A stretch of DNA of 41,473 nt, from the IMG/VR virus record IMGVR_UViG_3300037245_000541, positions 1 through 41,473 of that record; one strand, 5' to 3'. Position numbers and translations under genes: made by a program. Shown here piece by piece: positions 3,864-40,180 of this stretch. Under the pieces are notes generated by a model. It had not been told where the DNA came from. It did no database searches and saw nothing but the letters and a program-made list of their open reading frames with translations. The stretch's first letter is position 1; every line of letters begins with the position of its first letter. The stretch is from a virus.

Positions 3864-4412
3864 TCTATGTAATCCTATCTAGTGAGTGAATCTATCTTAT
3901 TCTATCCTAGCTAAGAGGCTACTGCCTGCTTGCTTGGTATGAGTTAAGTATACAGCTATTAGCTAGATTAGGGAGTTTATTTGCTGTATTAGGGAGTATT
4001 GGTGAGATTGATTAAGACTTAGCTAGTAACTACTAATAACGTCTAGTTATATAAGGGTGTAGGGGTGTGTATTAGGTTAGCTAGGGGGCAGGTGTGTATA
4101 CCCTGTGTGTATGGGTAGGTATATCTAAGCTAACACCCCCATCAAGTAGTACTAAGCTAAGCTAGGGTGTATAGGTGGGTAGGTGGTAGGTAGGCTAGTA
4201 GGTGGTAGCAGAGGGGTATTAGAATCTAAGGGGGGCCTCAACCTTTTTTGACTTTCCCGCGCGGTGTACTCCTAAGAACGACCTTACATATTTCTAAACT
4301 TTTTTAGGTATTAGCTATCTAAGCACTTATTCTAGGAAAGCCATTTGCGCACATAGAGGTAACTAGCTATACTAGGTACTATTACTAATGACTACCAGAG
4401 GAGCCTGAGCTT
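3864..4412. promoter_or_regulatory. Divergent control region, G-rich on the + strand
   Basis: This 549-bp gap separates the leftward early genes from the rightward late operon and holds no credible ORF. Much of 3960-4235 is rich in G runs on the + strand: ATTAGGGAGT occurs twice (3967-3976 and 3988-3997), GGGTGT/GGGGTGT several times, and GGTGG/GTAGG repeats at 4170-4206. GGGGTGT (4062-4068) can pair with ACACCCC (4133-4139). The palindrome CCGCGCGG lies at 4257-4264 just after a T6 run and TTGACT (4249-4254), a possible -35 without a convincing -10. Promoters for both arms must lie here, but I cannot place them reliably. Confidence 0.55.
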
Positions 4413-5210: not shown

Positions 5211-6833
5211 ATGGCTAAGAAGAGAGAACCTAACCAGAATATACTGGAGTCCTTAGGAGGTAATTTAGATGACTACCCTGAGGATGAGAATACTCCTGAA
5301 GGTATTCCTGAAAACTTACCTACTACTATACTACCTACTAACTCTGCTCCAAAGTTAGAAGAAGACGTCCAGCAAGTAGGGGCTTCAGCAGAAGAAGTAC
5401 AAGCACTAGCTAAGCAGGATATGGACTTTCTAGCTGCCTTAGTAATGCCTCTAGTATTTAAGTATTGTTTCCCTCCAGTATTTAAAGCTGTCTGGGAGTG
5501 GCTACTAGGTTATGTAGCTGAGAAGAGATCCTTCCCTCAGTTAGCCTTAGGTCTACCTCGTGGCTTTGGTAAGTCCACAGTAATGAAACTGTTTCTATTC
5601 TACTGTATAGTATTTACAGACAAGAAGTTCATAGCAGTAATAGCAGCTAACGCTAAGCTAGCAGAGAACATTGTATCTGATGTAATGGATATGCTAGAAG
5701 AACCTAACATTATAGCTGTGTTCGGGGACTGGAGATTAGGCTGTGAGAAAGATACTCAGTCACTTAAGAAGTTCGGTTTCAGAGGTAGAAACATAACCAT
5801 AGCTACAGTAGGAGGCGAAGGTCCTATCAGGGGACTTAACATAAAGAATGAGCGTCCTGATGTAATGCTGTTTGATGACATACAATCTAAGGAGTGTGCA
5901 GATTCAGAAGTACAAAGCACTAGCTTAGAGACCTGGCTAATAGCTACAGCAATGAAAGCTAAGTCACCTATGGGTTGTATGTTTCTATTCGTAGCTAACA
6001 TGTACCCTACTAAGCATAGCTTACTTCGCAAATTCAAACAGAATCATACCTGGACTAAGTTCATAGCTGGTGGCATACTAGCTGACGGAACTAGCTTATG
6101 GGAAGAGCTACAGCCTATTAAGCAACTAACAGCTGAGTTTGAGAATGACTTAGCTATGGGTCACCCAGAGATCTTCTACTCAGAGGTACTTAATGATGAG
6201 AACGTTAGCTTTAATAACCGTATTAATCTATCTAAGCTTCCCGATACACCCTACCAGGACGGGGATATTTCTGCGGGTAGCTTTGTTATTATCGACCCAG
6301 CAACGGATAAGATAGATAGTGATGCTGTATCTATAGGTTACTTTGAAGTACATAATGCTAGACCTATGCTTATGGAGCTTAAGGAGGATAGGTTCTCCCC
6401 AGGTGAAACCATTACAGAGGCTATTAAGTACTGTCTTAAGAATAACTGCCGGCTAGTAGCTATCGAAGCTAACGCCTATCAGTACTCTCTTAAGTACTGG
6501 TTTGACTTTATATGCTTACAGATGGGTATCCGAGGTATTGAAGTAGTACCTATCTACTCAGGTGTTACAGCTAAGAACAATAGAATCCTAACCTTCTTTA
6601 AAGCTTACTCAGCTGGCGAGATATACTGTCACCCTGACTGCCGCTTAGATCTCCACTTACAGGTATCTTCCTTTAACCCTATGAAGAGAGATAACACTGA
6701 CGGCCTGTTAGATCTTATGACTTACGCGCCTAGAGTTATGGTAGAGTTCGAAGAATATGTTATAGGCGGCTCTATACTAGAACAGCAAGAGTTTGATGCT
6801 ACTGAGGTAGTAGAGTTTAACAGCTGCTTCTAG
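5211..6833 (+). CDS. terL: Terminase large subunit (packaging ATPase/nuclease)
   Basis: Motor and nuclease that drives genome packaging through the portal. A Walker A motif GLPRGFGKST lies at residues 114-123 and a Walker B VMLFDD at 218-223. The C-terminal RNase H-like nuclease domain shows the acidic residues expected: D362 (IIDPATD), E419 (LVAIEA) and D497/D501 (TDGLLDLMTY). At 540 residues the length is normal. The first 60 residues are acidic and probably disordered. It follows the small ORF by 2 bp, has a weak ribosome binding site and is likely translated by coupling. A structured gap separates it from portal. Confidence 0.93.
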   Translation: MAKKREPNQNILESLGGNLDDYPEDENTPEGIPENLPTTILPTNSAPKLEEDVQQVGASAEEVQALAKQDMDFLAALVMPLVFKYCFPPVFKAVWEWLLGYVAEKRSFPQLALGLPRGFGKSTVMKLFLFYCIVFTDKKFIAVIAANAKLAENIVSDVMDMLEEPNIIAVFGDWRLGCEKDTQSLKKFGFRGRNITIATVGGEGPIRGLNIKNERPDVMLFDDIQSKECADSEVQSTSLETWLIATAMKAKSPMGCMFLFVANMYPTKHSLLRKFKQNHTWTKFIAGGILADGTSLWEELQPIKQLTAEFENDLAMGHPEIFYSEVLNDENVSFNNRINLSKLPDTPYQDGDISAGSFVIIDPATDKIDSDAVSIGYFEVHNARPMLMELKEDRFSPGETITEAIKYCLKNNCRLVAIEANAYQYSLKYWFDFICLQMGIRGIEVVPIYSGVTAKNNRILTFFKAYSAGEIYCHPDCRLDLHLQVSSFNPMKRDNTDGLLDLMTYAPRVMVEFEEYVIGGSILEQQEFDATEVVEFNSCF

Positions 6834-6844
6834 AGTAGTTACCT

Positions 6845-7010
6845 AAGCGAATCGCGGCGCCCTAAGTGACCGCAAGAGTGCCTTACGAAGGCTAAGGGCC
6901 CACAAGTCAAGCACGCCCAGTGAGCGTAGCGAGTGGCTGCTTTACCTTGGGGATATGCTGAAGTAAGCTCTCGGGCAGGGCACTAGTAGCAAGAGGAGCG
7001 GCACCAATCA
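6845..7010 (+). ncRNA. Candidate structured RNA between terL and portal
   Basis: The 215-bp gap is much more GC-rich than its surroundings and has no ORF. On the + strand a three-way junction can be drawn: GCCC 6915-6918/GGGC 6973-6976 and GAGC 6922-6925/GCTC 6967-6970 enclose hairpin GTAGC-GAGTG-GCTGC (6926-6940) and a second hairpin (6942-6948/6961-6966, one bulged C). Upstream, GCCCT 6859-6863 pairs with AGGGC 6895-6899 around hairpin GCCTT-ACG-AAGGC (6880-6892), and GCGG 6854-6857 could form a pseudoknot with CCGC 6870-6873. Strand is inferred from the flanking genes. It could be a regulatory leader for portal, an RNA processing site, or a packaging-related RNA; none is proven. Confidence 0.5.
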
Positions 7011-7048
7011 TCCCACTTTACAATTCACCTTTATAAGAGATTAAAAGT

Positions 7049-9076
7049 ATGGCAGCTTCAACAGAGGTAGTACTATCTAAAAAGGCTCAATTAGCTTTCT
7101 TTGAATACTACCGTAATACTCAGAACATAGGTAGCGTTACTCGTAATCAAACTAGAGCTCGTTTCTTACGAGTAGATAGAGAGTACCAGCGAGAAGTAGA
7201 TAGACAAGAAGATAATCTACGAGCTCAGAAAGCTAACAACCAAGGCGATACTTCTCGCTACCAGGATATGACTGTTCCTGTAGTTATGCCTCAAGTAGAA
7301 GGAGCAGTAACTCATCAGTCTTCTGTCTTCCTTACTGGCGACCCTATATTTGGAGTAGTAGCTTCACCTGAGTTTGAAGATGAGGCCCTCCAGCTACAGA
7401 CAATCTTAGAAGATAACTCTATTAAAGGCGGTTGGGCTAAAGAGCTTATGCTATTCTTCCGAGATGGCGCTAAGTATAACTTCGCTCCTGTGGAAGTATC
7501 TTGGGCTCAAGAAGTAACTCATACTGTAGAGACAGACCTTACTAAGAACGCTAAAGAAGGTGTACCTAAGAAAGTAATCTGGTCTGGTAATAAGATACGT
7601 CGCTTAGATCCTTACAATACTTTCGTAGATACTAAGGTACCTGCATCTGAAGTATATAAGGACGGTGAGTTCGGAGGCTTTACAGAGCTGTTCGGTCGCA
7701 TTAAGCTTAAGAAGTTTATATCTGAGTTACCTCATAAGATCATAGCTAACATTAAACCTGCTTTTGAATCTGGCGTAGGTGGTACCATGGCAGCTAAAGA
7801 TGCTTCTGCTATGAACTACTACATGCCTTCTATTAATCCTGCAATTAACGAGGATGACTATAAAGGTAACGGAACTAACTGGATACGTTGGGCAGGTATT
7901 ACAGACACTCAGCAGAAGATTGACTATAAGGATAACTATGAAGTAACTACCTTATACTGTCGTATACTTCCTTCTGAGTTTGATCTACGTGTACCTAATG
8001 CTAAGACTCCTCAGATCTATAAGCTAGTCTTTGTAAATCATGAGCATATCATCTTTGCTGAGCAGCAAACTAACGCTCATGGTTACTTACCTCTCATGAT
8101 AGGTCAGCCATTAGAAGACGGTCTATCTTACCAGACTAAGTCCTATGCTGAGAATGCCATTCCTTTCCAGCAACTAGCTACTACTTACATGGGTTCTATC
8201 ATAGCCTCTGCTAGACGTTCTATCTCAGATCGTACTCTGTTTGACCCTAGCCGTATTACTGCTGCTAACATGAACTCAGCTAACCCTTCTGCTAAGATAC
8301 CAGTAAGGCCTGCTGCTTTTGGCTCTAACATATCTGACGCTGTATATGCTTTCCCTTATAGAGCAGATCAGAATGCAGTTAGTATGCAGCAGATCCAGAC
8401 TATCCTTGAACTATCAGACTCCTTAGCTGGACAGAACAAAGCTCAGCGAGGTCAGTTTACTAAGGGTAACAGGACTGTAGAAGAGTTCTCTGAGATCATG
8501 CAGAATGCTAACGGTAGAGATCAGCTAGCCTCTCTTCTTATAGAGCATCAAGTATTTGTACCTATTAAGCTTATCCTTAAACTTAATACCCTGCAGTTCC
8601 AGGGCGGTACTACTGTATATAACAGAGATGAAGATAAGGTTGTAGAGATTGATCCTGTAGCTCTACGTAAGGCAGTACTTAACTTCCGTATCTCAGATGG
8701 TGTAGTACCTGCCTCTAAGATTATAAGTGCTGATGCTTTTGGTATAGCTTTACAGACTATGGCAGGCTCACCTCAGATAGGCGCATCTTATAACATAGGT
8801 CCTGCATTCTCTTACCTAATGAAAACTCAGGGTGCTGAGATAGCAGCGTTTGAGAAACCTCCTGAACAAGTAGCTTACGAAGGTGCAATGAGTCAGTGGC
8901 AGAGTATAGTAGCTCTAGCTATTGAGAAGTCCCCTACAGGCGAGATAGGTGGCGACTTCCCTCCACAACCTTTACCTGAGCAGTTTGGTTACGATCCTGC
9001 AGCTAACAACCCAAAACCAGAAGCAGATAACTCCGGCAGTCAAGCCCCCACCCCACCCTCAGTACTAGAAGGCTAA
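7049..9076 (+). CDS. Portal protein
   Basis: The portal forms the dodecameric channel at the head vertex through which DNA enters and leaves. The call rests on position directly after terL and before scaffold and capsid, on the 675-residue size, and on a typical mix: an N-terminal basic helix-rich part, a central beta-rich wing with several Asn/Tyr-rich segments, and a long helical section around residues 440-500 (ILELSDSLAGQNKAQRGQ). The C terminus is Pro/Ser/Asn-rich and disordered. The ribosome binding site is weak (AAGAGA). No other gene here could serve as portal. Confidence 0.82.
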   Translation: MAASTEVVLSKKAQLAFFEYYRNTQNIGSVTRNQTRARFLRVDREYQREVDRQEDNLRAQKANNQGDTSRYQDMTVPVVMPQVEGAVTHQSSVFLTGDPIFGVVASPEFEDEALQLQTILEDNSIKGGWAKELMLFFRDGAKYNFAPVEVSWAQEVTHTVETDLTKNAKEGVPKKVIWSGNKIRRLDPYNTFVDTKVPASEVYKDGEFGGFTELFGRIKLKKFISELPHKIIANIKPAFESGVGGTMAAKDASAMNYYMPSINPAINEDDYKGNGTNWIRWAGITDTQQKIDYKDNYEVTTLYCRILPSEFDLRVPNAKTPQIYKLVFVNHEHIIFAEQQTNAHGYLPLMIGQPLEDGLSYQTKSYAENAIPFQQLATTYMGSIIASARRSISDRTLFDPSRITAANMNSANPSAKIPVRPAAFGSNISDAVYAFPYRADQNAVSMQQIQTILELSDSLAGQNKAQRGQFTKGNRTVEEFSEIMQNANGRDQLASLLIEHQVFVPIKLILKLNTLQFQGGTTVYNRDEDKVVEIDPVALRKAVLNFRISDGVVPASKIISADAFGIALQTMAGSPQIGASYNIGPAFSYLMKTQGAEIAAFEKPPEQVAYEGAMSQWQSIVALAIEKSPTGEIGGDFPPQPLPEQFGYDPAANNPKPEADNSGSQAPTPPSVLEG

Positions 9077-18774: not shown

Positions 18775-20246
18775 GCTATGAAAATGTACCTAAGAATAAA
18801 GATAACACCAGAGTATTAGTAGAGACTGATAATATTAAAGCTGCGTTCGGTGGAGTCTCTACTGTAGAGTTAACTCCTATAACGCAGATCCAGTCTAACT
18901 ATGGTTTACTAGAAGGTGTGTTTACTGTACTAGATGACGGGGCAGTAGGTTCTACTAGTGTAGTAGATAGTAAGTTTACCTGTGAGACAGGGGTATCAGC
19001 TACCGGTTTAGCTAGTATCTTAACACTTCGTCAGGTAGGTCATAAGCCAGGCCAAGGACTAGTAGCTAGATTCAATGCTGTATTTGATACTCCCGTAGCT
19101 GATTCATTTCAGTCTGCTGGTATGCTTTCAGCCGGAGACTCTGTAGCCTTTTCCTATGCTGATACTAACTTCGGTATAGTCTATGCTCACGGCGGTATAG
19201 ATGAGCTGCAAGAACTAACTCTTACTATAGCTGCAGGTGCAGAGAATGCTACCGTTACTGTTAACGGAACTGCTTATATAGTAGCCCTTAGCGGGGTAGG
19301 CACTGTACAAGAGGATGCAGTTGAGTTAGCAGCAAGCCTTGATACTCAAGTACCTAACTATAGATTCTCTGCTAACAATGATCAAGTAGTAGCTCAAGGT
19401 GCAATACCTGGACCTGCAGGTTCTTTTGCTTATGTTAGTGCGGGTACCTCAGTAGGCGCCTGGGTTCAGATAACTGCAGGTGTAGATAATACTAATACCT
19501 TTATACCTCAAGCTAGCTGGAATGTAGATACTAAAGATGACTTAGATCCTACCCTAGGTAATGTGTACCAGATACAATTACAGGATGCTTACTTCGGACC
19601 TGTTGACTTCTCTATAGTCGATCACGAGTCAGGAGACTTAGTACTAGTACATACTATACGAGCACCTAATGTTTCTATTGATACGTTGTTCTCTAACCCT
19701 ACATTCAGAGTAGGCTGGTTAGTCACTAACACAGGTAACACTACTAACTTAACTATTCAAGGGGCTTCTGCAGCAGGATTCATAGAAGGTAGGGTAGTAA
19801 ACAGCGGGCCTACTAGAAGTGAAGTTAAAGATCAGTTAGCTGTAGGTGCTACCCTTACTAACATTATTAGTATTAGGAATAGGGATAGCTTTGGAGGTAA
19901 GGTTAACCGAGCTGAGATGGCATTAAAACTTATATCCTCTTCCTCTCAGACTAATAAGGTAGCTTTCTTTGAAATTATACTTAACCCTACCTTAGCAGGC
20001 CTACCTATATTTAACTATGTAGATAAAAACGCTTCTCTAGCTGAGGTTAGTACAGACAGTGTAGCTGTATCTGGAGGTAGGATCATAGCTACTGTAACTG
20101 TTACGTCTAGTGGAGGACCTGTACTAATCCTAGGGCCTACTTCACCTCCTATATTTCCTGGTGATTTAATAACTGTCGCTGCTGTTGTACCTAGCGGAGC
20201 TGCTTCAGACTGTCAAAGTACTATCACCTGGCAAGAGGATATCTAG
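18771..20246 (+). CDS. Beta-rich tail fibre/spike protein, 491 aa
   Basis: Starts inside the stop codon of the previous gene (ATGA overlap). It is Thr/Val/Gly/Asp-rich with many short strands, for example TLTIAAGAENATVTVNG, VYQIQLQDAYFGPVDFSIVD and TNTGNTTNLTIQGASAAG, the latter typical of beta-rich virion surface proteins found across large phages and viruses. No enzymatic motif is visible. Context suggests a fibre or receptor-contact protein. Confidence 0.58.
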   Translation: MSYENVPKNKDNTRVLVETDNIKAAFGGVSTVELTPITQIQSNYGLLEGVFTVLDDGAVGSTSVVDSKFTCETGVSATGLASILTLRQVGHKPGQGLVARFNAVFDTPVADSFQSAGMLSAGDSVAFSYADTNFGIVYAHGGIDELQELTLTIAAGAENATVTVNGTAYIVALSGVGTVQEDAVELAASLDTQVPNYRFSANNDQVVAQGAIPGPAGSFAYVSAGTSVGAWVQITAGVDNTNTFIPQASWNVDTKDDLDPTLGNVYQIQLQDAYFGPVDFSIVDHESGDLVLVHTIRAPNVSIDTLFSNPTFRVGWLVTNTGNTTNLTIQGASAAGFIEGRVVNSGPTRSEVKDQLAVGATLTNIISIRNRDSFGGKVNRAEMALKLISSSSQTNKVAFFEIILNPTLAGLPIFNYVDKNASLAEVSTDSVAVSGGRIIATVTVTSSGGPVLILGPTSPPIFPGDLITVAAVVPSGAASDCQSTITWQEDI

Positions 20247-39799: not shown

Positions 39800-39847
39800 T
39801 ATGTTTTACCTTAGTAGTATAGTATTAGGTAATGGATGTAAGGGAAT

Positions 39848-39922
39848 TGGCTGTAGTGGTAGGGCTCGAACCTACTACGACACCTATAGTGTGACGCTTT
39901 ACCATGTTAAGTCTACACTACA
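39848..39922 (-). tRNA. tRNA-like gene with encoded CCA, irregular D and anticodon arms
   Basis: Read on the minus strand from 39922: the acceptor stem TGTAGTG pairs perfectly with CACTACA, followed by discriminator G and an encoded CCA (39850-39848). The T arm is canonical: GTAGG, loop TTCGAGC, CCTAC. The D arm holds only a CTT/AAG core with GG in the loop. The anticodon arm GTCAC-ACTATAG-GTGTC has one T-T mismatch; a 7-base loop would give anticodon UAU (Ile, AUA) but C at position 33, while a one-base shift gives U33 and AUA. The variable region is short. It may be a degenerate tRNA or a tRNA mimic. Confidence 0.6.
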
Positions 39923-40180
39923 TTAATTAGGGGTCCTGTATCGCACAGCGGACTAGACTGCTCACAAGGTAGGAAGACCTTTGCACTTCAGGCTTACCGG
40001 CTAGGGTAAAAACTAAATTATTTTCAGAGTTTTTAGCAGATACTATGTAAGCATACCGCTTGTAAGGTACGATCCTTACCTTGAGACGTGGCAGAAAGTT
40101 GGTCTCTTATCCCTTTTTAATTTTTTATACACAGAGAAGAAGATGCGCAGGTATAACTCAGTGTTAGTTCCTACCGGAAA
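39923..40180 (-). ncRNA. Hairpin-rich gene-free segment beside the tRNA-like gene
   Basis: No credible ORF. Five hairpins are visible: 39933-39939/39945-39953 (7 bp with a GC bulge), 39966-39970/39977-39981 (AAGGT/ACCTT), 39994-39998/40005-40009 (TTACC/GGTAA), 40062-40067/40074-40079 (GTAAGG/CCTTAC) and 40083-40087/40102-40106 (GAGAC/GTCTC). T runs follow the last on the + strand (40114-40126). A further bulged hairpin (40164-40184) overlaps the stop of the next gene. This could be a leader or processing segment of the tRNA-like transcript, or a separate RNA; the strand is uncertain. Confidence 0.4.

Follow-up and report, generated by a model that had tools for sequence, protein, structure and literature searches.

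What lies between terL and the portal gene of this uncultured phage? In the window, the 41,473-nt stretch of viral DNA analyzed here, the terL ORF (5211–6833; phrog_38, E = 7e-43) and the portal gene (7049–9076; phrog_15554, E = 9e-79) are separated by 215 nt (6834–7048), and the questions raised by this intergenic region are whether it encodes a functional RNA on the + strand and what such an RNA would do for the phage.

The terL–portal gap and its contents

The preliminary description had depicted a GC-rich island without an ORF at this site, and this is borne out: the GC content of the gap is 0.52, compared with 0.42 for the whole window, and its longest ORF comprises 13 codons. The structured element spans approximately 6847–6995 on the + strand, the ends being placed where similarity to the related locus L001 begins and ends, and its core (6880–6970) is matched by two covariance models, R1 and R2, that include the window sequence in their training set. 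The portal leader and start codon (7025–7051, + strand) lie outside the RNA, and the mean pairing probability is 0.62 over the RNA and 0.34 over the portal ribosome-binding region. A sigma-70-like promoter was not detected at the RNA in the window, and the intrinsic terminator signature of a GC-rich stem and a U run at the element end is absent after it; the sole terminator-like site on the + strand is an internal 5-pair match at 6926–6940, within P6/P4 of the fold described below. Three other long stretches of the window are free of ORFs (3864–4412, 549 nt; 2012–2485, 474 nt; 39800–40180, 381 nt) and are possible promoter or origin regions.

The RNA has no counterpart in the libraries searched. 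A tRNA/tmRNA search of the window gave no match at the gap, and Rfam 15 gave no gathering match in the window and none at E ≤ 10 for 6700–7200; in eight other member loci, the only Rfam match was a chance miRNA match outside of the RNA. The element thus matches no Rfam 15 family, including pRNA, ribozymes, introns, riboswitches, and GOLLD/ROOL. A blastn search of 50,697 phage records with the window gap and with 13 further RNAs, other or same-family, returned a single 30-nt match at chance level, and a pattern scan of GTDB genomes returned none. No such gap exists in the cultured relatives Pseudomonas phage PaMx41, Aeromonas phage P5, Polaromonas phage Tiera, and EBPR podovirus 3. No description of such an RNA was found in the literature searched, and the main text of one report on candidate structured RNAs mentions neither terminase nor portal (PMC8040213).

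A family of rod-shaped RNAs

Relatives were collected by terL and portal searches in IMG/VR. In these, terL and portal are separated by anything from 11 nt to over 1.5 kb; the gap is empty in many and contains small ORFs or genes in some. In eight loci (L005, L006, L007, L008, L011, L031, L001, and L057), the gap often holds a putative M15-type peptidase gene, assigned by motif, together with small ORFs, so the gap appears to behave as a cargo site. A subset of the gaps carries a GC-rich, ORF-free stretch with the motifs GACCGC, GUCAAG, CUAGCGNAGCGG, and UAAGCU. R1, a covariance model built on ten training sequences of the central arm, recovered all ten and others besides, and R2 was built on 19 of the sequences recovered by R1. 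Outside of its training set, R2 scored L029 with E = 2e-4 and found L286, in a different collection, with E = 5.3e-15; the latter match is just upstream of a portal gene. The L286 contig is binned as a Thermoprotei archaeon and carries a phage portal gene along with the RNA; it is most likely a mis-binned phage. Across the family, the element is about 150–200 nt in size.

The family extends to a distant phage, G015 (L240), whose terminase, portal, and head proteins belong to the same families and which has two divergent copies of the RNA (7384–7603 and 19773–19910), one directly upstream of portal and the other upstream of a gene for a 612-residue protein of the virion cluster. These copies score only 17 bits, such that very diverged copies could be missed. 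A search for relatives of the G015 portal returned G015 itself alone. In L130 (4809–4846), comparison with L138 reveals a shared 5′ half of the RNA followed by a jump into the coding sequence of the 612-residue gene, which is either a deletion that arose naturally or an artefact of assembly.

Covariation was evaluated on an alignment of 20 sequences (A6), with shuffling and slid partners as controls. Standard pairs occupy 85.8% of the cells, compared with 66.5% after shuffling and 31–45% with slid partners, and the covariation score is 0.515, compared with 0.173 and at most 0.116, respectively; none of 500 shuffles reached any observed value, a comparison to be read with the caveats that A6 was fitted to the structure and that kinship among the sequences inflates the shuffle contrast. 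Both sides have changed in 19 of the 23 pairs, and these compensatory changes are what the preliminary description had proposed to look for in the gaps of related phages. G-U outnumbers A-C in the cells of A6 (34 vs. 8), which indicates selection on a + strand RNA and not on DNA or on the other strand. The two general hallmarks of functional RNA structure, compensatory changes and G-U pairs on one strand, are therefore both present. The borders of the element are marked by L050 and L159, in which the RNA is nearly identical between the closing arms while both flanks have diverged to ∼57–75%.

The folding energy of the window sequence, in contrast, carries no such signal. The fold had been called hard to get by chance; however, the minimum free energy of 6845–7010 is −52.9 kcal/mol versus a shuffled mean of −56.1 kcal/mol (z = +0.82, with 156 of 200 shuffles as good; z = +0.84 on repetition), and the argument from chance therefore fails for the window sequence alone. 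Across 17 members, the mean z is −3.8 and 16 beat their shuffles, the window being the sole member with a positive value; the energy comparison that had been suggested thus favors structure in the family and not in the window. That the window sequence by itself folds like its shuffles is the one point in favor of a chance GC-rich stretch without function, a reading that can be practically discounted in light of family covariation beyond both the shuffled and the slid controls and of the independent match L286. With covariation across diverged homologous gaps and no match in Rfam or the phage collection, the proposal of a new structured RNA stands, and we regard it as almost certain that this is a genuine RNA with no precedent in the libraries searched.

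The conserved fold is a rod, P2–P3–P4–P5–P6, in which the basal helix P2 is followed by an asymmetric internal loop with the 3′ bulge UAAGCU and then by P3, P4, P5, and P6, the last bearing the tip CUAGCGNAGCGG. All window positions given here are on the + strand. P2 pairs AGUGC (6877–6881) with GCACU (6980–6984), and in 15 members the P2 arms, picked by eye, pair far better with their own partners than with swapped ones (p = 5e-5). The 5′ motif UGACCGC (6867–6873) sits just outside P2 and is common to most members. P3a pairs CUUAC (6882–6886) with GUAAG (6963–6967) and is also kept in L001; in the window, it is followed by a 3 × 3 internal loop, GAA/GAA, and by P3b, in which GGC (6890–6892) pairs with 6957–6959. 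All four modelled pairs of P3 have changed on both sides across the family. P4 pairs CCCACAAGUCAAGCA (6899–6913), which carries the conserved GUCAAG, with 6938–6952; it includes a recurrent C-U mismatch (6908/6943 in the window) and shows changes on both sides in 12 of 14 pairs. P6 and the tip hairpin occupy 6915–6937, with P6 formed by 6915–6917 and 6935–6937; 91.5% of the P6 cells are paired, and three pairs have changed on both sides. The tip of the window, GC-GUA-GC (6924–6930), is a variant of the family tip, and a search for this extended type elsewhere gave already-known loci only. The 3′ motif UAAGCU...GGGCAGG (6964–6979) lies mostly in the bulge that separates P3 from P2, with its first four bases shared with P3a, and UAAGCU is nearly invariant in A6. 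A P5 helix of the GUUU/AAAC type is seen in individual folds of many members and is missing in the window and in L001. Several members show a closing helix, P1 (e.g., GAGGC/GCCUC in L050), which is weak in the window.

This rod replaces the three-way junction that was initially drawn for the window, as L001 does not keep the pairs that the junction requires. Inspection of the alignment reveals that the proposed outer stem, GCCC (6915–6918) with GGGC (6973–6976), is broken in L001 (GCCT/GAAGC), as is the upstream stem-loop (6859–6866/6892–6899). The initial model also included a possible pseudoknot. A pairing of GACCGC with the 3′ bulge, convincing by eye, loses its support once P2 is removed, as the segments then pair with swapped partners just as well as with their own (p = 0.23), and a joint test of the pseudoknot against the nested fold did not separate the two.

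Accessory distribution near portal

The neighborhood of portal could be assessed in 87 distinct portal lineages. The RNA is present in 20 of them, 5′ of portal in 15 and 3′ of it in five, and the portal tree, built with FastTree only, requires at least 11 gains or losses. The clearest comparison is of L050 with L033, which are 85.8% identical in DNA from portal onward: L033 lacks the RNA cleanly, with a 13-nt gap in place of it and of a short ORF (on a 12-kb contig, such that a copy elsewhere in the genome is possible). Ten records of 42–46 kb with terL and portal relatives gave no match, and the five of these that were inspected have no GC-rich structured gap. No protein family co-occurs with the RNA in a comparison of nine records with it and 11 without it. 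The RNA is thus an accessory, optional component of the late genes.

Its placement also varies. The RNA can be 5′ of portal, between portal and the next gene (as in L079, which is in the R1 training set as L112, L038, L105, and L065), or one gene further (L163), with nearly all members within one gene of portal. Every copy is oriented with the late genes and occupies the space that separates a stop codon from the ribosome-binding site of the following gene. This ribosome-binding region is mostly unpaired in the majority of 13 members, L180 and L079 being among the exceptions; the pairing over the next ribosome-binding site that characterizes a translational leader or riboswitch is therefore not a general feature of the family.

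A P4–P6-like hairpin with a GUCAAG stem and a CUAGCGWAGCGG tip is found in other phages directly downstream of an integrase gene and near a tRNA-like fragment (L125, 2549–2628; on the − strand, L106, 3101–3179, L131, 3739–3818, and L115, 3236–3274). R2 scores these four hairpins with E-values of 3e-5 to 0.24, which are flattering since the loci were preselected by sequence pattern; kinship with the portal-side RNA is at most possible. Many further pattern matches to the tip motif were dropped as chance.

Possible roles of the RNA and comparison with known systems

We tentatively favor, at somewhat less than even confidence, the view that the element represents a new discrete family of structured RNA, an optional add-on to the late operon that binds a factor in trans. 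The phages that carry it would form a family of uncultured tailed phages with terL of phrog_38, portal of phrog_15554, and a head protein of phrog_1328, in which the RNA, sited beside portal in the head/packaging module, would be read on the late-gene strand within the late transcript. It might then be cut out of the late mRNA or stay within it, and its conserved tip and bulge may bind a host or core phage factor, to a benefit needed by perhaps only some phages in some hosts. The variable position favors action in trans and speaks against the control of a single, fixed gene. What counts against this reading, besides the weak P1 of the window, is that nearly all members lie near portal, as a freely acting RNA need not; this closeness, which favors action in cis, could reflect either a cis role or a local hot spot for cargo.

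Action in cis is a close contender, which we place only slightly behind trans action. As a late-mRNA element, the RNA would insulate, stabilize, or provide a processing site at the junction of terL, portal, or the next gene and thereby set the ratio of head proteins. It is always on the late-gene strand and fits into the space from a stop codon to the next ribosome-binding site, it is almost always beside portal, even in the distant G015, and the second G015 copy precedes another gene of the virion cluster; however, it switches sides relative to portal, a near-twin manages without it, and neither a promoter nor a terminator-like tail after the RNA was found. The effect on portal expression suggested in the preliminary description is possible in these terms, with the qualification that the ribosome-binding site is left mostly free. 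A further reading, which we find rather unlikely, is that of a mobile, optional "RNA moron" that inserts near portal, with a trimmed hairpin that would have spread to the integrase regions of unrelated phages and would act in trans on a host target such as a defence or RNA-handling factor.

Other readings fare worse. The location between the terminase and portal genes invites comparison with a packaging RNA that docks on portal in the manner of phi29 pRNA. Such an RNA should also be present in relatives that share the motor, yet the near-twin lacks it at the same site and no copy appears in the ten long records, whose terminase and portal are homologous; the rod-like fold departs from the pRNA architecture, and there is no Rfam family match. 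A role in packaging had been entertained; given the optional distribution, a part that packaging generally requires is unlikely, and we consider a packaging RNA improbable. A compact RNA with conserved internal loops at a gene junction could also be a new self-cleaving ribozyme acting to process the late transcript; this is if anything more doubtful, as the RNA has no Rfam ribozyme match, no sign of a catalytic core, and no supported pseudoknot. That the element is a pac/cos or recombination site in DNA, palindromic by coincidence, gains something from the same-tip hairpin that adjoins integrase genes and a tRNA-like fragment (possibly attP) in other phages; the excess of G-U over A-C, which points to selection on the + strand RNA, and the optional occurrence in close relatives make it highly improbable.

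Few optional, strongly conserved noncoding RNAs are known from the late operons of phages. The function of this one is accessible to experiment, since near-twin phages differ in its presence, its fold is defined, and its tip is conserved; if it acts on the host, the RNA would represent a class of accessory phage gene overlooked by protein-based annotation.

Like phi29 prohead RNA (pRNA), the present RNA is phage-encoded, structured, of similar size, and linked in position to packaging genes; unlike pRNA, an essential part of the motor, it is optional and rod-shaped and matches no Rfam model. Phage genomes also carry self-cleaving ribozymes (hammerhead, HDV-like), which are likewise compact structured RNAs between phage genes, whereas the present RNA has neither an Rfam match nor a recognizable catalytic core. 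GOLLD and ROOL RNAs are much longer than the present RNA. They resemble it as conserved structured RNAs of bacteria and phages whose function is unknown and that are recognized without a partner protein, and differ from it in that the present RNA is without an Rfam match (PMC12286853). A further parallel is with the candidate structured RNAs of metagenomes, which are of open function and were, like this family, found by covariation in uncultured sequence (PMC8040213, PMC2864571).
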